From Zestomonas carbonaria (GTDB lineage: Bacteria > Pseudomonadota > Gammaproteobacteria > Pseudomonadales > Pseudomonadaceae): DNA of 64,000 nt. The stretch is taken from assembly GCF_904061905.1 (NCBI RefSeq), contig NZ_CAJFCI010000039.1, positions 62,001-126,000 on the forward strand, in the 5' to 3' direction. Shown piece by piece: positions 20,462 to 29,482 of the stretch. Under the pieces are notes generated by a model. That model was not told where the DNA came from and ran no database searches. It saw nothing but the letters and a program-made list of their open reading frames with translations. Numbering within the stretch: position 1 is the stretch's first letter; every line of letters begins with the position of its first letter. Position numbers and translations under genes: made by a program.

Positions 20462-22801
20462 TCAGTCGGAAACCCGGAACTCCACCCGCGCGGTCTGCCC
20501 GCTTTCATCGAGCACGCTCAACTGGTAGCGGCCCGGGCGCGGCAATGCCTGGCTGACCGGCGCATCCGCCATGCTCTCGGCTACCGGCGCGCCGTCGAGG
20601 AACCACCAGCGCCGCCCGCCGCCACCCAGGGCGGACAGTTGCAGACGCAACGGCTCGGCGCTGGAAGCCGGGCGGCGCAACTGGTCGCCGGGGCGCACGC
20701 CGACGATGGATAGAGGCGCCGGCAGCGGCTCGGCCAGCGCCGGGCAATCCGGGTCGATGGCGGGCAGCCGCGCCGCGCGGCGCTCACGACGCGGCAGCCA
20801 GGGCTCCAGGGCGGCCGGCCAGAACGCCAGCTCATGGGCGCTGGCATCGGGGCAGCCGGGCGCGACGCGCAGGCCCGCCGGGTTCAGCCAGACGGTCTGC
20901 CGCAGCCCCAGGCCGAGCGGCTGGTCGGCCGCCGGCAGGGTCGGCGGCACGGTGCCGTCGAGGGTCCAGGCGAAACGCTGGCGACGGCAGTTGGGATCGT
21001 TCCTGGGCATCGCCTGGCCGAGCGGCCAGCAGATCGCCGCCACGCCGATGCCGGCCGGTACCGCGTCCACCGGCTGGGCGATGCCGCGCTGGCCGTCGCG
21101 GTTGACCAGCAGGTCGTGTACCTGCAACAGCAGCGGCGCCGCCGAAGCAAGGCCGAACTGGCCGGGCACCGGGGTGCCGTCCGGGCGGCCGAGCCAGACG
21201 CCGATCAGGTAGCGCGGACCGACGCCAATCGCCCAGGCGTCGCGGAAGCCGTAGCTGGTGCCGGTCTTCCAGGCCAGGCTGGGGCGCTGCGCCAGTTGCG
21301 CGCGCGGGTCGCGATCCGGCCGCGACTGGCCGCTGAGGATGCGCCGCACGATCCACGCCGCGCCGGGCGAGAGCAGGCGCCGCTCGTGCAATTCGTCCTG
21401 CGCTTGCAGGCGCGGCCGCGCGGTCTTGCCGGCGCGGGCGAAGGCGCTGTAGCCGGTGACCAGGTCCTCCAGCCGCGCGCCGCCGCCGCCGAGGATCAGC
21501 GCCAGGTTCGGCTCGGCCAGGGGCGGCAGGGCGAGCGGCAAACCAGCGCCGCGCAGTTCGCCGGCGAAGCGCTTCGGCCCGTAGGCTTCCAGCAACTGTA
21601 CCGCCGGCAGGTTGAGCGAGGTGGCCAGCGCCTCGCTGGCCGACACCGGGCCGGTGAAGCCGCTGGAGAAATTGCCTGGCCGGTAGTCGCCGTAGCGGCG
21701 CGGCACGTCCTGCAACAGCGACGCGGAATGAATCAGCCCGGCGTCCATCGCCATCCCGTAGAGGAAGGGTTTCAGGGTCGAGCCGGGCGAACGCAGGGCC
21801 TGGACCATGTCGACATGGCCGAAGCGCCGCGCGTCGTTGATGTCGACCGAACCGAGGTAGGCGCGCACCGCCATGTTCTGCGCCTCGACCACCAGGATGC
21901 CGGCCGAAGTGGCTTCCGGCAGACGCGCGCGCCAGCCAAGCAGCAGGTCCTCCAGGCGACGTTGCAGCGGTGCATCGATCAGCGTGCGGATCAGCGGCGG
22001 GCTGCCGGGGCGGTTCAGGCGCCGCGCCAGCAGCGGGGCGAGGCGTGGCTCCTGGCGCGGGGCGAGCAGCACCGGCTCCTCCAGCGCCTCGTCCACCGCC
22101 GCCCGCGACCATACCTCGAAGGCGGCGAGGCGCTGGAGCACCTTGTCGCGCGCTGCCTGGGCGCGTCCGGGATGGCGATCCGGACGCAGCCGGCTGGGCG
22201 CCTGGGGCAGCACCGCGAGCAACGCCGCCTCGCTGCGGGTCAACTGCCCCGGCGGCTTGCCGAGGTAGGCCCAACTGGCCGCCGCCACGCCCTGCAGGGT
22301 GCCGCCGAACGGCGCGCGGTTCAGGTACAGGGCGAGGATTTCGTCCTTGGAGAGGTGCCATTCCAGTTGCGCGGTGCGCCACAACTGCTTGAGCTTGCCC
22401 GGCAGCGAGCGCGAATGCGGATCGAGCAGCCGCGCCACCTGCATCGACAGGGTGCTGCCGCCGGACAGCACGCGCCCGCCACTGAGGTTCTGCCAGGTGG
22501 CGCGCGCCAGGGCCAGCGGGTTGACGCCGGGATGCCGGTAGAACCAGCGATCCTCGTAGGTCAGCAGCGCCTCCAGGTAGTACGGCGACACCTCGTCGGC
22601 CGTCACCGGGTAGCGCCACACGCCGTCGGCATCGGCGAAACGCCACAGCGGCGTGCCGTCCTCGGCGAGCACCACGCGGGCCAGGTCGTCGCCCGGCAGG
22701 GGCAGCGGAAACAGGCGATCGGCCGCCCACAGCAGGAGCAACGCCAGCAGCGGCCAGCGGCCCCAGCGCCAGACGCAGCGCCTCCCTGCGCGCCAGTTCA
22801 T
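20462..22801 (-). CDS. pbpC: Penicillin-binding protein 1C
   Basis: A 779-residue class A PBP. A signal-anchor helix is at 17-30. The GT51 glycosyltransferase has EDRWFYRHPGVN (catalytic Glu83) and GGSTLSMQVARLL (114-126). The transpeptidase has SxxK STLK (Ser341-Lys344), SxN SLN (395-397) and KTG (from Lys512). The last roughly 180 residues form the BiPBP_C domain characteristic of PBP1C. It polymerises, and may cross-link, peptidoglycan in the periplasm. In enterobacteria pbpC is paired with an alpha-2-macroglobulin gene; here the A2M gene lies 1.5 kb away on the same strand, separated by a small GNAT gene and the DUF559 unit. Confidence 0.93.
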   Translation of the reverse strand: MNWRAGRRCVWRWGRWPLLALLLLWAADRLFPLPLPGDDLARVVLAEDGTPLWRFADADGVWRYPVTADEVSPYYLEALLTYEDRWFYRHPGVNPLALARATWQNLSGGRVLSGGSTLSMQVARLLDPHSRSLPGKLKQLWRTAQLEWHLSKDEILALYLNRAPFGGTLQGVAAASWAYLGKPPGQLTRSEAALLAVLPQAPSRLRPDRHPGRAQAARDKVLQRLAAFEVWSRAAVDEALEEPVLLAPRQEPRLAPLLARRLNRPGSPPLIRTLIDAPLQRRLEDLLLGWRARLPEATSAGILVVEAQNMAVRAYLGSVDINDARRFGHVDMVQALRSPGSTLKPFLYGMAMDAGLIHSASLLQDVPRRYGDYRPGNFSSGFTGPVSASEALATSLNLPAVQLLEAYGPKRFAGELRGAGLPLALPPLAEPNLALILGGGGARLEDLVTGYSAFARAGKTARPRLQAQDELHERRLLSPGAAWIVRRILSGQSRPDRDPRAQLAQRPSLAWKTGTSYGFRDAWAIGVGPRYLIGVWLGRPDGTPVPGQFGLASAAPLLLQVHDLLVNRDGQRGIAQPVDAVPAGIGVAAICWPLGQAMPRNDPNCRRQRFAWTLDGTVPPTLPAADQPLGLGLRQTVWLNPAGLRVAPGCPDASAHELAFWPAALEPWLPRRERRAARLPAIDPDCPALAEPLPAPLSIVGVRPGDQLRRPASSAEPLRLQLSALGGGGRRWWFLDGAPVAESMADAPVSQALPRPGRYQLSVLDESGQTARVEFRVSD

Positions 22802-23395: not shown

Positions 23396-23689
23396 ATGCG
23401 CGTAGAAAGCTTTTTCGAATGGCTCGGCGAAACGCTGGGCGCGATCATCCGTTTCATCGTCGAGGGAATTGGCGGTTTCTTCGCCCAGATCGGCCGCGCC
23501 GGCGCCGACTTCCTCGACGGCCTGGCCCGCGCGCTGGGCATGGACCCCACCTGGCTGAGCATCCTCGCGCTGATCATCGGCCTGTTGCTGCTGGTCCACG
23601 CGGTGCGCGCGTTTCTGCGTGGCTCGGTGGTGTACGGGTTGGTGGTGCTGTTGGTGGGGTTGTGGATGTTGAGTTTGTTGATTGGCTAG
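23396..23689 (+). CDS. Small membrane protein, unknown function
   Basis: A 97-residue protein. The first 45 residues form amphipathic helices rich in Phe, Gly and Ile (FFEWLGETLGAIIRFIVEGIGGFFAQIG). Two adjacent transmembrane helices follow (WLSILALIIGLLLLVHAVRAF and VVYGLVVLLVGLWMLSLLIG). Coding is supported by codon-position GC bias and by the clean divergent arrangement with the GNAT gene. I do not recognise a named family. It ends 9 bases before the outer inverted repeat of the DUF559 unit. Confidence 0.65.
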   Translation: MRVESFFEWLGETLGAIIRFIVEGIGGFFAQIGRAGADFLDGLARALGMDPTWLSILALIIGLLLLVHAVRAFLRGSVVYGLVVLLVGLWMLSLLIG

Positions 23690-23710
23690 AACAGCGGCCC
23701 TCTCCCCCGA

Positions 23711-23736
23711 CCCCTCTCCCGTAAACGGGAGAGGGG
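23711..23736. repeat. Outer palindrome, left copy
   Basis: CCCCTCTCCC / GTAAAC / GGGAGAGGGG, a 26-base hairpin-forming sequence. Its exact reverse complement is at 24253-24278. Confidence 0.9.
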
Positions 23737-23790
23737 TGACTGGGCTGGCCGCATCCGGGTGAAGATCACTTCCCATTGTGCTGGAACACT

Positions 23791-24129
23791 TTATGGGAGA
23801 GGGCTGACAGCCAGGCGAATCGCCTCCAGAACAGCCTCCGTTTCTCCCAGCACCTCATGGTTCCAGAACCGCAGCACCCGGAAGCCGCGCGCCTGTAGAT
23901 AGCGGTCGCGCGTTCGATCCCGCTCTGCTTGCTCCTGATGCTGCCCGCCATCCAGTTCGATGACCAGAAAGCGTTCCAGGCAAACGAAGTCGACGATGTA
24001 GGGGCCGACAGGCTTCTGCCGCCTGAACTTGAGCCCCATGAAGCGGTGGCCGCGCAGGTAGTACCAGATCCGTGCCTCGGCATCGGTCATGTTGCTGCGC
24101 AGCCGCTTGGCGTTTTCGCGCAAGCGCAT
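23791..24129 (-). CDS. DUF559 domain protein (Vsr-like endonuclease fold)
   Basis: A 112-residue protein with the DUF559/MTES_1575 core: MRLRENAKRLRSNMTDAEARIWYYLR, then GLKFRRQKPVGPYIVDFVCLERFLVIELDGGQH, then RTRDRYLQARGFRVLRFWNHEVL. The D..E.DG arrangement (VDF and IELDGGQH) is the PD-(D/E)XK-like metal site shared with very-short-patch repair nucleases. Activity is unproven in most members. The start at MRLRENAKRL was chosen; the in-frame extension to 24225 merely translates the flanking repeat. The TAA stop (23791-23793) lies inside an inverted repeat, so gene and repeat look like one unit. Confidence 0.75.
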   Translation of the reverse strand: MRLRENAKRLRSNMTDAEARIWYYLRGHRFMGLKFRRQKPVGPYIVDFVCLERFLVIELDGGQHQEQAERDRTRDRYLQARGFRVLRFWNHEVLGETEAVLEAIRLAVSPLP

Positions 24130-24165
24130 GAAAGCCTCCTTGCTTTCGTTCCTTGCCCTCTCCCC

Positions 24166-24191
24166 AGCCCTCTCCCATAAATGGGAGAGGG
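24166..24191. repeat. Inner inverted repeat, right copy with its own hairpin
   Basis: AGCCCTCTCCCATAAA (24166-24181) is the exact reverse complement of 23790-23805. It also extends into the local palindrome CCCTCTCCCAT-AA-ATGGGAGAGGG (24168-24191). It lies 36 bases upstream of the DUF559 start codon. Confidence 0.9.
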
Positions 24192-24252
24192 AGCCGTCCG
24201 AGCCGGAGGATACGACAACGTTCATTGAAACTCCGAGCTGTCGTCCTCGTCA

Positions 24253-24278
24253 CCCCTCTCCCGTTTACGGGAGAGGGG
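24253..24278. repeat. Outer palindrome, right copy
   Basis: CCCCTCTCCC / GTTTAC / GGGAGAGGGG, the reverse complement of 23711-23736. It lies 22 bases from the stop codon of the alpha-2-macroglobulin gene and could also form a hairpin at the end of that transcript. Confidence 0.9.
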
Positions 24279-24299
24279 CCGGGGGAGAGGGTATTCCAG

Positions 24300-27200
24300 C
24301 TATCGCTCCCTAACCACCAACTCCCCCACACTCTCCCCAACCGCCTGCCAATTAGGCCGATACATCGACTCCACCTGCGGCGGCGGCACACGATAACTGC
24401 CGGGGGTGACGGCGCGGGCCAGGTAGAGCAGGTGGGTGGTGGCATAGCCGCTCAGGTCCAGGGCGGCGACGTAGCGGTCGTCGCGGTATTCCTGGTGCTT
24501 GATCGAGGCGTTCTGCATCGAGCGCAGCCACTCCTTCACCGCGCCGCTGGCGTCCTCCAGGCTGGCGGCGCTGCCGGCAAGGTTCTGGTTTTCCAGTTCC
24601 AGGCCGGCCGGCAGCAGGTCGACCACCAGGGCGTCCGGCACGCGTTCGCGGGCTTCCAGGGCGATATGCACCAGCACCAGTTCGCCGCTGGCGAGGTCGT
24701 CGAGCTGCAGCGGTTCGCCGTCCAGGCCCAGGTATTCGCGGCGGATGGCCAGGTTCTCGCCGCCGGCCCTGGGCGGTTCGACCGGGTAGCCGGAGATGTC
24801 CAGGCGCTGGTACAGCGTCTCCTCGCCGGGGTTGCGCAAGGTCAACGGCTCGGCCAGGGACTCGCCGGCCAGCTTGACGCCCGGCGCGGCGTTGCTGAGT
24901 TCGCGCGACTCGCCAGCCACGCCGAGCTCCGCGCGCCAGTCGCGTTCGGGCCTGGTCAGCAGATCGCGGCCGGCGAGGAACAGCGCATTGCGTTCCTGGG
25001 TGGACAGGTAGGGGCGTCCGGCCAATTCGTCGGCGAGGCTGAACAGGCGTTCCTCGCGGTGGGTCGCGGCGAGGTCGTGTTCCTCCAGCAGGGCGAGGAT
25101 CAGCGCCTGGTCGCGCAGCGGGCTGCCGTAGTCGCCCAGCCAGCGCTCGCCCTCGCGGGTACGGGCCAGGCCGGCGGCCAGGACGTCGTCGGCGCGCGGT
25201 TGGTCGCCCATCTTGCGCAGGGCGACGGAAAGCTGCACCAGCGGCAGGCCGGATCTGGCATCGGCGCGGCGCTCGTAGAGGCTGCGCAGGGCGCCGAGCG
25301 GCGCCTGCTCGCTGCGCGCCAGGACGTAGCCGGCGTAGGCCTGCACGGCGAAGCGGCTGTGGTTGGCGTCGTCGCTGTAGCCGACTTCGATCAGGTTGCG
25401 CTCCTGCAGGTAGCGCAGCAGCCGCTCGCTGGCCTTCTTCAGCGCCTCGGCCGGCACGCCGAAGCCCTGTTCGCGGGCGCGCAGCAGGAAGTCGGTGACG
25501 TAGGCGGTCAGCCAGTATTCCTCGTCGCCGTCGGCGCTCCACAGGGCGAAGCTGCCGTTGTGGCGCTGCATGCCGAGCAGGCGTTCGATGCCGACCTCGA
25601 TCTTGCGCCGGCGCTTGTCGTCCGCCTCGCCTTCGATGCCCAGGCGCTTGAGGCTGGCGGCGTCGGCGTAGAGGCTCGGATACAGGCCGCTGGTGGTCTG
25701 CTCCAGACAGCCGTAGGGATAGGCCTGGAGCGCACGAATCTGCTCGGCAAGGTTCAGCGGCGGGCGGCTGGAAACGCTCAGCAGCGCCTCGCGGCCGGCC
25801 GGCTCGAAGGCTGCCAGGGTGCCGCTGGGCAGGCTCCAGGGCTCGCCCTTGAGCACCGCGCGGAAACTCCTGACCTGCGCCGGATAGGCGGGGCGCACGC
25901 CGATCCGCCAGTCGCGCGAATAGGCCGGCAGGTTCTCGCCGGGCAGCTCCAGGCCATTGACGCTGACCGTCACCCGGCCGGTCCCGTGGCCGCCCTCGGC
26001 GCGCACCGGGATCTTCAGGGTAGTGCGCTGGCCAGGTTCGAGGCTGATCGGCACCTGGCGCTCGCCGCTGCCTTCGGCGAGCGCCAGTTGGCCTTCCGCG
26101 CGCAGAGTGACGTCGAGTTGCTGCGCCTGCTCCGTGAGGTTGCTGAGGTCCAGCGCCAGGCTGGTGCGGTCGCCACCGGCCAGGAAGCGCGGCGCCGACA
26201 GCTCGGCGATCAGCGGCGCGGCGACCACGGTCTTGGCCTCGGCCACGCCGAAACGGTCGTCCGTCCAGACCTGGGCCATCAGCCGCAGTTCGCCGTTGAA
26301 GTCGGGGATGTCCAGGCTGACCTCGCCCTCCCCCTGCGCATCCAGCGTCAGCGGCTGGCTTTGCAGGGCGACGATGGTGACGCTGGTGTCCGGGCGCTTG
26401 CCGCCGGCCGCCAGCGCCGCGTCGCCGCCGAACGCCAGGCTGGCCAACCGGCCCTGCCCGGCCTCGATCAACTGGCCGTAGACGTCGAGTTGGTCGGCGC
26501 CATAGGCCTTGCGGCCGAACAGGCTGGCGAACGGATCGGGCGTCTTGTACTCGGTGATGTTGAGGATGCCGACGTCCACCGCCGCTACCAGCACCCGCGC
26601 CTCGCGGGCCGGCGCACCGCTGGCGTCGCGGGCCTGCACGCGGATCTTGAGCGGCTGCCTGGGACGCATCTTCTCCGGCGCCAGCAGGCTCAGTGCCAGC
26701 TTGCGCTCGGCGCGTTCGAGCGGCAGGTGCAGCAGGCCGACCGCGCGCTTGGGCGTGACGTTGGCCTTGCGCTCGCCAGGACGGACCACCAGGGCGCTGA
26801 CGTACAGGTCGTGGCGCGCCCAGTCCTTGGCGATGGGGATGTCGAAGCTCTTGCCCTCGGCCGGCACCTCGATTTCCTGCCACCACAGAGGCCCTCCGCT
26901 GGACTCCACCAGCAGGTAGCCGTTGCCGGCGGTCGGCGGGGTTACGGTGACCCTGGCGGTCTCGCCGTCCCTGTAGGCCGGCTTGTCCAGCGCCAGCTTG
27001 ACCTGGTCGGGACGCACCGCGCCGCCCTCGGCGTTGTCCTGCCAGCGGTAGCCGGCCCAGAAGCGCAGGCTGCTGACCAGCCTGGTCCGCGGGTCTTCGA
27101 CCTCGACGCGGTACGGGCCCCACTCGACCGGGAAGCTCACCTTGGCGGTGCCGCCCTCGGCGACCTTGACCGTCTCTTCGCTGAGCTGCAGGTACTTCTC

Positions 27201-29204
27201 GTTGTAGTGGTAGCTCCAGCCGTCGCTTTCCGAATAGTTCCAGTAGTAGTCGCGGCGCTCGCGCACCAGGCGCACCTTGAGATCGTCGGCGGCCAGCTTG
27301 CGGCCTGTGGAATCGGCAACCAGCAGTTCGAACTCGGCGAGGCCGTCGGCGTCCACCGAGTCGCCGTCGAACAGCCCGCGCACGCCGGGCAGGCGTTCGG
27401 CCGGCCATACCGGCTGGACGATGCGCCGGGTGATCGGCCGGCCGCCGGACTCCTGCAGGCTGGCCTGGAGGATCAGCTTGAGCGGCGACCTGGCCTCGGC
27501 CCATTTGCTCTCGATGTCGAGGGTGGCCTTGCCGTCGGCGTCCAGGCTGGTTTCGTCGATGTCGAGGTTCTGGCTCAGCTCTTCTTCGACCACCGAGCCG
27601 AACTGGTAGCCGGGCAGGCTGGCCACCGCGTCGCGCAGCGGGCGCACGTAGAGCTGGCCGGAGAGGCGGTTGCCGGCGGCCGGCGCGCCGTACAGATAGC
27701 GGCCTTCCACCCGGAACTGCGGGTTGTCGGCGGGCCGCAACGGCGTGTCGCTGCCCTTCAGTTCCAGGGCCAGGCGTTCGGGCAGGAAGTCCTCGACGAG
27801 AAATTCGTAGAGCTGCGGCTTGCCGTCGCCGAGGTCGAAGAGCAGTTGCCACTTGCCGGTCGGCGCCTCGCCGGCCAGTTCCAGGCGGTATTGGTAGAGG
27901 CCGCTGTCGTCGGCGCTCCAGACGAACTTGCGGCTGACCTGTTCGTCCGGGCGGCGCACTTCGACGTTGACCGGCTGGGCTTTCACCGGCTTGCCGTCGG
28001 CATCGCGCAGCAGGCCATTGAGCAGCACGGTCTCGCCGGGACGATAGAGGTCGCGCGGGCCGAACACGAAGAACTGCAACGGATGTGCCCGAGGCCCGGC
28101 GATGTCGAATTCGGCCAGGTCCAGCGCGGCGGTGTTCAGGCGCAGCAGGCTGGTCTGCCCGTCCTTGCGGGCCAGCAGCACCTCGGCCTTGTCCGGCAGC
28201 GCCAGTTCGGCGTGGCCGGCCTTGTCGGTCTTGCCGGAGCCGAGGCTGCGGCCGTTGCTGTCGAGCAGTTCCAGCTCGATGTCGGCCAGCGCCTTGCCAC
28301 CTTCCAGGGCCTGGGCGAACACGTCGAGGCGGTCGCGGTAGCGGTGCACGGACAGGCCGATGTCGCTCAGGGTGAACAGCGTCGCCGGCTGCGTGTAGGC
28401 GTAGCTGCCGGCCTCGCGCATCACCGCCAGGTAGACGCCCGGCTGCTTCAGCGGGTCGATGCCGCCGATCGGCAGCAGCAGGGTCTCGCGGGTGTTGCGT
28501 GCCGGGTTCAGGTCGAAGCGGCCGCCGTAGACCAGCTCGGCCATCGGCAGCAGATCGCGGGCTTCCCAGGTGTCCAGGCTGCTGGCACGCCCCCAGCGGC
28601 TGAGGAAGGCCGGCAGCGCCTGCGGCTTGATGCGGAAGAACTCGACGTTGACCTTGTCGACGTTCAGGGCGATCACCGGCAGCCCTTCGGCCAGCCGGGT
28701 CGGCAGCAGCGAACCACGGCTGGCGAAGCCGACCGTGGCCTGCAAGTCGCGGGTGGTGAGACGGGCGACATGCTCCTTGGCCAGGGTCGCGCCGTTCACC
28801 GCGCGCAGCCCGGCGTCGGCGGTGAACACCAGCTTGCGGCGCGGCTCCAGGTGGCGCAGGCGCACTTCCATCAGGCTGTCGGACAGCTCCCAGGCGCCAT
28901 CCACCTTGCCGTCCTTGCTGTCCACCAGGTGCAGCCGGTCGGCCAGGGACTGGTCCGGGTCGAGCGGCACCGAGAAGCTCACCGACAGCGCGCTGGCGCC
29001 GTCGACCTGGATTTCCGAGACGTCCACCACCTCCAGCTCGCGGCCGGCGTAGCGCTGCGCCAGGGCCTTGGCATCGGCCGCGGGACGCTTCTGCTGTTCG
29101 GCGGCAGGTGCCGGGGTGGCGGTTTTCGGTGCTTCGGGGGTGGAAGAATCGCAGGCGCTCAGGAAGGCGAGCGCAAGGGCCAGAAACAATCCCTTGTACG
29201 GCAT
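24300..29204 (-). CDS. Bacterial alpha-2-macroglobulin lipoprotein (YfhM type)
   Basis: A 1634-residue protein. The lipoprotein signal is MPYKGLFLALALAFLSAC (Cys18), followed by a Pro/Ala-rich linker and successive MG beta-sandwich domains. The thioester motif GCLEQ (Cys1166, Gln1169) is intact, in YPYGCLEQTTSGLYPSLYAD, with alpha/alpha toroid and receptor-like domains after it. Such proteins trap attacking proteases covalently in the periplasm, and gene pairing with PBP1C is taken to link this to peptidoglycan repair. The length fits E. coli YfhM (about 1650). The start was placed at the signal peptide; the in-frame extension to 29354 covers repeat sequence. A long antisense frame opposite it is a codon-bias artefact. 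Confidence 0.93.
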   Translation of the reverse strand: MPYKGLFLALALAFLSACDSSTPEAPKTATPAPAAEQQKRPAADAKALAQRYAGRELEVVDVSEIQVDGASALSVSFSVPLDPDQSLADRLHLVDSKDGKVDGAWELSDSLMEVRLRHLEPRRKLVFTADAGLRAVNGATLAKEHVARLTTRDLQATVGFASRGSLLPTRLAEGLPVIALNVDKVNVEFFRIKPQALPAFLSRWGRASSLDTWEARDLLPMAELVYGGRFDLNPARNTRETLLLPIGGIDPLKQPGVYLAVMREAGSYAYTQPATLFTLSDIGLSVHRYRDRLDVFAQALEGGKALADIELELLDSNGRSLGSGKTDKAGHAELALPDKAEVLLARKDGQTSLLRLNTAALDLAEFDIAGPRAHPLQFFVFGPRDLYRPGETVLLNGLLRDADGKPVKAQPVNVEVRRPDEQVSRKFVWSADDSGLYQYRLELAGEAPTGKWQLLFDLGDGKPQLYEFLVEDFLPERLALELKGSDTPLRPADNPQFRVEGRYLYGAPAAGNRLSGQLYVRPLRDAVASLPGYQFGSVVEEELSQNLDIDETSLDADGKATLDIESKWAEARSPLKLILQASLQESGGRPITRRIVQPVWPAERLPGVRGLFDGDSVDADGLAEFELLVADSTGRKLAADDLKVRLVRERRDYYWNYSESDGWSYHYNEKYLQLSEETVKVAEGGTAKVSFPVEWGPYRVEVEDPRTRLVSSLRFWAGYRWQDNAEGGAVRPDQVKLALDKPAYRDGETARVTVTPPTAGNGYLLVESSGGPLWWQEIEVPAEGKSFDIPIAKDWARHDLYVSALVVRPGERKANVTPKRAVGLLHLPLERAERKLALSLLAPEKMRPRQPLKIRVQARDASGAPAREARVLVAAVDVGILNITEYKTPDPFASLFGRKAYGADQLDVYGQLIEAGQGRLASLAFGGDAALAAGGKRPDTSVTIVALQSQPLTLDAQGEGEVSLDIPDFNGELRLMAQVWTDDRFGVAEAKTVVAAPLIAELSAPRFLAGGDRTSLALDLSNLTEQAQQLDVTLRAEGQLALAEGSGERQVPISLEPGQRTTLKIPVRAEGGHGTGRVTVSVNGLELPGENLPAYSRDWRIGVRPAYPAQVRSFRAVLKGEPWSLPSGTLAAFEPAGREALLSVSSRPPLNLAEQIRALQAYPYGCLEQTTSGLYPSLYADAASLKRLGIEGEADDKRRRKIEVGIERLLGMQRHNGSFALWSADGDEEYWLTAYVTDFLLRAREQGFGVPAEALKKASERLLRYLQERNLIEVGYSDDANHSRFAVQAYAGYVLARSEQAPLGALRSLYERRADARSGLPLVQLSVALRKMGDQPRADDVLAAGLARTREGERWLGDYGSPLRDQALILALLEEHDLAATHREERLFSLADELAGRPYLSTQERNALFLAGRDLLTRPERDWRAELGVAGESRELSNAAPGVKLAGESLAEPLTLRNPGEETLYQRLDISGYPVEPPRAGGENLAIRREYLGLDGEPLQLDDLASGELVLVHIALEARERVPDALVVDLLPAGLELENQNLAGSAASLEDASGAVKEWLRSMQNASIKHQEYRDDRYVAALDLSGYATTHLLYLARAVTPGSYRVPPPQVESMYRPNWQAVGESVGELVVRER

Positions 29205-29342
29205 GACAGGCTCCCGGAATGGGGGTTGCGGAGGCTGGCAACTATAGCCGAGGGGGCCGGGTCGCGCCGGTCGGCCGTGGGTTTGGGCTCCTACGGCTCG
29301 ACGGTGGGCTGAAGCCCACCCTACCATTCCCCCTTCGCGTAT

Positions 29343-29482
29343 GAGCCTGCCCACGATCTGCTGCGCGTCGGCAGAACGGCGTTGAGAACGACTTCGGACT
29401 GCTCATTTACAGTCGTAAACTCCGCTTCCTCAGCCGGTCTCGCCACCGTTCCGCTCTAGCTCGCGAGATCGTGAACAGGCTC
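29343..29482. repeat. 140-bp palindromic element upstream of the MATE gene
   Basis: Ends GAGCCTGCCCACGATCT (from 29343) and AGATCGTGAACAGGCTC (to 29482) are imperfect inverted repeats around a roughly 100-base core. The core includes CATTTACAGTCGTAAACT, rich in short dyads. The remainder of the 29205-29496 gap holds a GTGGGCTGAAGCCCACC hairpin (about 29304-29320) and no gene. The element ends 15 bases before the MATE start, so it overlaps where a promoter or leader would be. The structure is MITE- or REP-like. Confidence 0.6.

Follow-up and report, generated by a model that had tools for sequence, protein, structure and literature searches.

DUF559 nuclease-like genes and their matching REP-like palindromes: a candidate partner for the BoxC/TM_ECO class of repeats

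Introduction

What is a small nuclease-like gene doing among inverted copies of a palindrome? The question is raised by a 64,000-nucleotide stretch of a Zestomonas carbonaria contig (the window), in which a gene of the DUF559 family lies among repeats that a sequence-only reading had described as nested: an outer inverted pair of 43 bp with one mismatch and an inner, perfect pair of 16 bp. That reading suggested that nuclease and palindromes may belong together as one unit, comparable to the RAYT transposases and their REPs, and knew of no described system of this kind. A survey of DUF559 flanks, a pair of filled and empty sites and the fold of the protein support such a unit. The DUF559-repeat link thereby stands, but not as an undescribed system of a single locus: it extends to several phyla, and the palindrome is the BoxC/PIT/TM_ECO element of E. 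coli.

First known from the 1990s, the BoxC/PIT/TM repeats are present in hundreds of genomes and are tied to genome instability. The accessible part of Holder et al. 2015 reports 23 TM_ECO copies in MG1655, gives the number of genomes as more than 260 and states that remnants of transposases or integrases were never found at TM_ECO sites (PMC4666352). For Enterobacter sp. 638, 100 copies of the repeat are given in the available text of a further study (PMC2869309). A literature search of titles and abstract beginnings, with most subscription papers outside its scope, returned no report of a DUF559-repeat link; among the papers naming DUF559, none was by title or abstract beginning concerned with these repeats.

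Results

Two REPIN-like doublets flank the window gene

The window gene (Table 1) matches the DUF559 profile PF04480 in a Pfam search with E 3.7e-42, a score obtained on a longer, mechanically called ORF of 144 aa (23791-24225), which starts further upstream and whose frame crosses the inner right palindrome. The only Pfam matches of the window protein at E <= 0.001 are PF04480 and PF18741. The sequence-only reading was correct in placing a 112-codon DUF559 gene between the repeats with its stop codon in the inner left one, and its neighbors pbpC and alpha-2-macroglobulin are borne out by matching domains, of penicillin-binding proteins in 20462-22801 and of bacterial alpha-2-macroglobulin in 24300-29312.

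The outer repeats are indeed 43 nt long and 98% complementary; the inner ones are perfect as claimed (100%), but at 17 nt they are one base longer. While coordinates and complementarity hold, the nesting is better replaced by another arrangement. All REP units around the gene share one design, in which a hairpin core is joined to a pyrimidine tail, and the better reading is of a REPIN-like doublet on either side of the gene: the left doublet combines a tail-core unit (23698-23735) with a decayed half-core (23790-23806), and the right one a tail-core (24156-24191) with a core-tail unit (24254-24291).

Table 1. Features of the DUF559 locus and related elements in the window
Feature	Position	Strand	Remarks
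DUF559 (PF04480) nuclease-like gene	23791..24129	-	112 aa from internal ATG; profile match, fold model
Outer left REP	23698..23740	+	tail CCCTCTCCCCCGA 23698-23710, hairpin core 23712-23735; tail outward
Inner left REP remnant	23790..23806	+	single arm; perfect inverted match to 24165-24181; contains stop codon
Inner right REP	24156..24191	+	tail CCCTCTCCCC; hairpin core 24168-24191 with ATAAAT as its middle; immediately upstream of gene start
Outer right REP	24249..24291	+	hairpin core 24254-24277; tail CCGGGGGAGAGGG 24279-24291, outward
Solitary REP, other sub-family of the genome	10903..10935	+	CCCTCACCC tail, short loop; outside DUF559 unit
Small ORF, left neighbor	23396-23689	+	
Bacterial alpha-2-macroglobulin gene, right neighbor	24300-29354	-	Pfam domains
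Penicillin-binding-protein-domain ORF	20462-22801		Pfam domains

The palindromes of the window belong to a genome-wide REP-like family: the pattern CTCTCCCN{2,8}GGGAGAG has 380 copies in the genome, its reversed control none. Within the window CCCTCTCCC occurs 12 times against 1.18 expected, with at least 12 copies in 0/100 shuffles, and there are three 24-nt hairpin cores against 0.00 expected. Together with the reversed-pattern control, these shuffles and expectations rule out chance palindromes.

The genome contains two DUF559 genes, each among its own REP sub-family. The first sub-family has cores with a 3-nt loop and a CCCTCAC tail (15/16 tails scored), and the second has cores with a 6-nt loop and a CCCTCTC tail (9/9). 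The 6-nt-loop type surrounds the window gene; the second gene (locus L002) has short-loop cores with CCCTCAC-type tails, and the solitary REP of the window is of this latter type. Around the second gene a doublet of about 120 bp is present in two direct copies (1368-1462 and 1902-1995 of L002), and its spacer contains a further palindrome, CCGTGCTCA...TGAGCACGG. Across 456 kb of the genome we find 31 cores of the same design: four of the five close core pairs have outward tails only, and 17 of the 21 single cores have one tail. The two Y1 transposase-like genes of the genome are located away from the DUF559 genes, with no CTCTCCC inside 1.5 kb.

Pyrimidine-rich hairpins accompany DUF559 genes

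As a rule, inverted copies of its own palindrome type adjoin or enclose the gene. With hairpins defined by an arm of at least 8 and a loop of at most 8, one of any kind is found within 150 bp of the DUF559 match at 48/50 family, 74/83 phylum and 70/80 named loci, and is missing at 11/133 family and phylum loci and 10/80 named ones. A pyrimidine-rich hairpin is that near at 47/50 family, 70/83 phylum and 66/78 named loci, two of the 80 named loci being left out of this count as near contig ends. Hairpins on both sides inside 150 bp are seen at 17/50, 48/83 and 50/78 loci, respectively, many loci being one-sided. All these loci are best-scoring rather than random, with the named set being the best 80 of 576, and L107 (contig end), L175 and L177 (merged or truncated) are left out of the hairpin counts. 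By their record titles the named loci come from Pseudomonadota groups, Nitrospirae, Chloroflexi, Omnitrophota, Planctomycetota, Melainabacteria, Kapabacteria and others. The flanks of other DUF559 genes had been set beforehand as a check, and palindromes are present at most loci examined. At the Neisseria gonorrhoeae locus (L295) the nearest pyrimidine-rich palindrome lies only at 189 bp from the gene.

The fair baseline for such proximity is ordinary genes rather than distant DNA. In two sets of greedy ORF calls, which differ from annotation, 107/329 and 81/306 ordinary ORFs (about 30%) have some hairpin that near; the nearest hairpin is, however, pyrimidine-rich at 117/133 DUF559 loci as against 22/329 and 34/306 ordinary ORFs. 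The specific CTCTCCC core lies within 150 bp at 43/50 family loci, with about 0.37 expected from the genome-wide density if each genome is taken as 5.3 Mb. Pyrimidine-rich hairpins are found at 0/32 Y1-transposase loci (any hairpin 7/32) and at 0/30 Vsr loci (any hairpin 2-3/30); the Vsr count rules out a general trait of Vsr-fold nucleases.

The palindrome is multi-copy mainly in genomes with the gene

Among 119 genomes of the family, with a DUF559 match at E < 1e-10 counted as presence and with the CTCTCCC pattern derived from the window alone, at least 10 cores occur in 37/44 genomes with the gene versus 13/75 without it (Fisher 8.9e-13). When presence is permuted within genera, the observed association is reached in 0/20,000 permutations. 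Among 200 genomes of the phylum, an excess of at least 10 over the reversed control is seen in 36/47 genomes with and 11/153 without DUF559, as counted with a wider pattern, YTCYCCC, that was picked after viewing the flanks of 25 phylum loci. In one family of the phylum (f53) the association is reversed in direction.

A RAYT as the driver of these repeats is unsupported. In the same family test, genomes with a Y1 domain (PF01797) have at least 10 cores in 42/90 cases versus 8/29 without it (Fisher 0.085); the association is weak in an unstratified rank test (0.015) and vanishes within genera, where 7,598/20,000 permutations reach it. The Y1 loci themselves are also devoid of pyrimidine-rich hairpins, as noted above.

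There are exceptions: the 13 core-rich family genomes without DUF559 include G060 with 201 cores, G109 with 94 and G014 with 57, and in the phylum G310, G253 and G273 are core-rich without a strong match. Gene loss, incomplete assembly or another driver may account for them. Both searches also returned many frames of ~1,700-2,200 aa with a weak DUF559-like match (E ~1e-4 to 1e-3), which were left out of the DUF559 counts and probably belong to large proteins that contain a related nuclease domain.

Each gene lineage has its own palindrome

Gene and palindrome co-diverge, including paralogs in one genome. Where both sides have a pyrimidine-rich hairpin (56 loci), the arms across one gene are alike, with a mean distance of 0.125 versus 0.441 when shuffled (0/10,000); with shuffling restricted to within genomes, the distance is 0.073 versus 0.292 (28 genes in 10 genomes; 0/10,000). 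Of the 28 genes whose loops could be scored, 24 have them in inverted orientation on the two sides, two in direct orientation, and two are ties. One genome (G141) contains six DUF559 paralogs and several palindrome types, each alike across its own gene.

Protein distance is correlated with arm distance (Mantel rho 0.29, n=124, 0/1,000). In a paralog test of 70 loci from 25 multi-copy genomes, each arm was compared with the arm at the locus of the closest protein from another genome: the distance is 0.184 versus 0.334 under within-genome shuffling (0/5,000). For want of a usable arm or a full-length protein, 9/133 loci were left out of these two tests.

A distinct palindrome, CCCCCTTT...AAAGGGGG, surrounds the DUF559 genes of one genus. 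Among the genomes sampled from that genus, it is present in 5/5 that have a strong DUF559 match and in 0/3 of the others; as CCCCCTTT was derived from two of the five (G050 and G061), the independent matches are G009, G025 and G085. Outside that genus one copy occurs among 119 genomes. Some cognate arm types, such as CCTCCCCATCG, contain more than pyrimidines. Since such arms are not pure in pyrimidine, we set the triplex aside as the shared feature and infer that the hairpin is what the repeats have in common.

Core-gene-core and single-core alleles alternate at the window locus

The search for empty and filled sites, suggested by the sequence-only reading, turned up a pair at the window site itself, beside the alpha-2-macroglobulin gene. 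Between the window genome and a relative (G337) the flanks are 82% identical, with the BLAST edges at the two outer 24-bp cores: the relative shows a single imperfect core between two tails, and the window genome has tail-core-gene-core-tail. Among 30 loci of the genus, the best 30 of 148 matching genomes, a DUF559 match stands beside the large gene in six (the window included, one of them weak) and 24 are without it; for four of these six, the fetched stretch contains no left anchor. A search for empty sites in a second genus gave a single, imprecise loss (G022). A single-core allele can also come from RecA-independent deletion between short repeats, without DUF559.

At the same site G014 has a tail-core remnant and a 175-aa ORF among GTAGCCCGGAT-type repeats (L233, 2566-3093 and leftward to the anchor). 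For this ORF a Pfam search returned no family at E <= 0.001; from its motifs we take it to be RAYT-like.

The E. coli repeats and ycjD

The E. coli gene ycjD is a DUF559 gene (profile search, E 1.4e-49), and its region is at least 80% covered in 3,333/5,426 E. coli genomes. In K-12 a BoxC remnant overlaps the 3' end of ycjD, with TM_ECO number 9 beyond it, and in strain C4 the BoxC at ycjD has a full tail. The pair beside ycjD has outward tails; in the two other E. coli doublets read, the tails point inward.

Allelic changes in E. coli are of several kinds. Between alx and sstT, K-12 has a BoxC doublet and another strain a single core, the 75 bp between cores being missing; this is no proof of enzyme action because slippage between short repeats could yield the same. 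Two further strains have unrelated sequence in this intergenic region (comparison of L402 with L399). In the fabI-sapF region (L254, L255, L256), two strains are without ycjD, but they are not clean empty sites because a TetR/efflux island adjoins fabI. In one strain a 106-bp deletion removes the end of ycjD together with the BoxC; its ends are at short repeats, not at BoxC cores.

The DUF559 protein and its relatives

The fold model of the window protein has a mean pLDDT of 91.5 and is closest to a solved DUF559 structure, 3hrl (Z 16.1; profile search E 4.9e-41); this is NGO0050, which was solved as a 'putative endonuclease-like protein' and has a strong match to the DUF559 profile. It is followed by I-Bth0305I (3r3p; Z 11.6 over 92 residues; profile search E 7.6e-5) and by Vsr (1vsr/1cw0; Z 9.2/10.1; Foldseek E 2.2e-3 and 2.9e-3), so that the Vsr-like fold ascribed to the family is confirmed by structure comparison. 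The Vsr profile PF03852 itself does not match the window protein at E <= 0.001. The residues E17, D46, E57, D59, H63 and D70 (numbered without the first Met) are invariant in A1 and A2, and we infer that they fit a predicted active nuclease. A DUF559 domain is also borne by the Caulobacter protein VsrA, which the available text of its description ties to the SOS response (PMC12907096). DUF559 matches are found in 45/72,556 plasmid records, some of them chromosome-sized.

Discussion

A dedicated endonuclease for REP-like palindromes

Because each version of the gene has its own matching palindrome in many bacteria, DUF559 is probably the partner of the repeats. We consider it likely that the family supplies a dedicated endonuclease for a REP-like palindrome class comprising BoxC/TM_ECO and its relatives, which it would cleave and thereby mobilize. 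DUF559 would recognize the core as a duplex, a cruciform or a single-strand hairpin and would nick or cut at or beside it; repair from another copy could then spread REP units to new sites, and the same repair could carry or remove whatever lies between two cores. Depending on these contents, the unit would take an autonomous form (the gene), a REPIN-like form (a spacer of ~60 bp) or that of a single core (nothing). Like RAYTs, DUF559 itself may persist in domesticated form and mostly on chromosomes, but it has a PD-(D/E)XK Vsr-like fold and no kinship with them. Transposition-like and homing-like versions of this process fit the present data alike.

The proposal provides a gene partner for the BoxC/PIT/TM repeats, which had none in the accessible text of the study that surveyed them (PMC4666352). 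As this partner is present in E. coli K-12 as ycjD, the question is testable at once. If the proposal is true, it adds a REP system with an unrelated nuclease at its center and gives a function to a widespread family that Pfam still labels as of unknown function. The balance tips slightly toward a broader claim: that bacteria have a second class of repeat-propagating enzymes, which evolved independently and is founded by DUF559, a PD-(D/E)XK nuclease that moves and copies its own palindromes, and that this explains the origin of the E. coli BoxC/triplex repeats and of the pyrimidine-rich REPs in many phyla.

Alternative explanations

The strongest rival is a caretaker role, in which DUF559 cuts or processes the hairpins or triplexes formed by the repeats, to shield the host or hold the repeats in check, and persists wherever they abound. 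The Vsr-like fold is that of a repair nuclease, the Caulobacter VsrA is linked in the available text to the SOS response and possible double-strand breaks (PMC12907096), and co-occurrence on its own suits either direction; yet such a role alone fails to explain that the gene is enclosed by its own repeat in inverted copies and that each paralog has a palindrome type to itself, and we regard it as unlikely. The gene could instead be a passenger, with mobile DUF559 genes landing or surviving in REP clusters made by other machinery. REP clusters do accept insertions, as with ISPpu9, which the accessible source locates in REPs, and G014 has another ORF and other repeats at the window site. Under this idea, however, palindrome type should be independent of gene lineage, and the idea is quite improbable given that arms match across the gene and differ among paralogs (0/10,000; 0/5,000), that the CCCCCTTT type is limited to genomes with the matching gene bar one stray copy, and that neither Y1 (0/32) nor Vsr loci (0/30) have pyrimidine-rich hairpins.

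Least probable is that the hairpins merely terminate the DUF559 transcript or govern the stability of its mRNA. The stop codon does fall inside a hairpin arm, and about 30% of ordinary ORFs (107/329, 81/306) have some hairpin nearby; but both-sided hairpins (17/50, 48/83, 50/78 loci) and the excess of pyrimidine-rich ones (117/133 vs 22/329 and 34/306) speak against it, a local role leaves the recurrence of the units across the genome unexplained, and the accessible text of PMC4666352 cites earlier work for the E. coli motif having no terminator activity. On the comparison with ordinary ORFs we dismiss the terminator-only reading as the main account. A different matter is whether DUF559 acts as a free-standing homing endonuclease, with the REP core as its target and spread by break repair between REP copies. 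As this is a sub-model of the dedicated endonuclease, the odds of the two overlap; taken by itself it is possible though doubtful. It is favored by the sequence and fold kinship with I-Bth0305I (E 7.6e-5; Z 11.6) and by an empty site of one core facing a filled site of core-gene-core. Against it stand a multi-copy target, a gene that duplicates the core instead of disrupting it, and the fact that no intron or intein was seen.

Comparison with known systems

Four known systems invite comparison with the dedicated endonuclease favored here. Vsr shares the fold (1cw0, Z 10.1), and Caulobacter VsrA, in the accessible part of its report, bears a DUF559 domain (PMC12907096); unlike Vsr, the window protein is unmatched by the Vsr profile, and the 30 Vsr loci are without pyrimidine-rich hairpins. 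I-Bth0305I is the nearest solved relative outside DUF559 by both sequence and fold, with a homologous catalytic domain. Whereas reviews, in their accessible parts, describe it as a long multi-domain protein, the window DUF559 is a single domain of 112 aa with no intron seen, and the extended DNA-binding region past the catalytic domain that is a trait of EDxHD nucleases is absent from it. DUF559 is kin to Vsr and to the EDxHD nucleases but is without the other defining features of either.

The likeness to BoxC/TM_ECO lies in the repeats: a core of CCCTCNCCC-loop-GGGNGAGGG, a tail GGGTGAGGG, multiple copies and an intergenic location (PMC4666352, accessible text). The CCCTCNCCC core, the purine/pyrimidine third-strand tail and the multi-copy state are all present in the window and in the copies of its genome. 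BoxC/TM_ECO is described in that text without a gene partner; here the proposed partner is DUF559/YcjD.

The RAYT/REP system offers the closest parallel in organization. The accessible description of it lists inverted flanking REPs, genome-wide scatter, doublets and gene-repeat co-evolution (PMC2817692). DUF559 shares with it a gene between inverted repeats, scattered copies, doublets and co-evolution of gene and repeat: inverted flanking repeats are present in the window and at many DUF559 loci, but not all, and a cognate repeat that is abundant and co-evolves with the gene is present. The differences lie in the enzyme, which is PD-(D/E)XK and Vsr-like here and a Y1 HUH transposase in RAYTs, with the Y1 HUH domain (PF01797) absent among the Pfam matches of the window protein; and in the repeat, which has a pyrimidine tail, CCCTCTCCCC or CCCTCACCC, instead of a GT(A/G)G head. 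Since it has neither the Y1 domain nor a GTAG head, the DUF559 unit is not a RAYT; the best reading, by analogy, is that it would nonetheless work as RAYTs and their REPs do.
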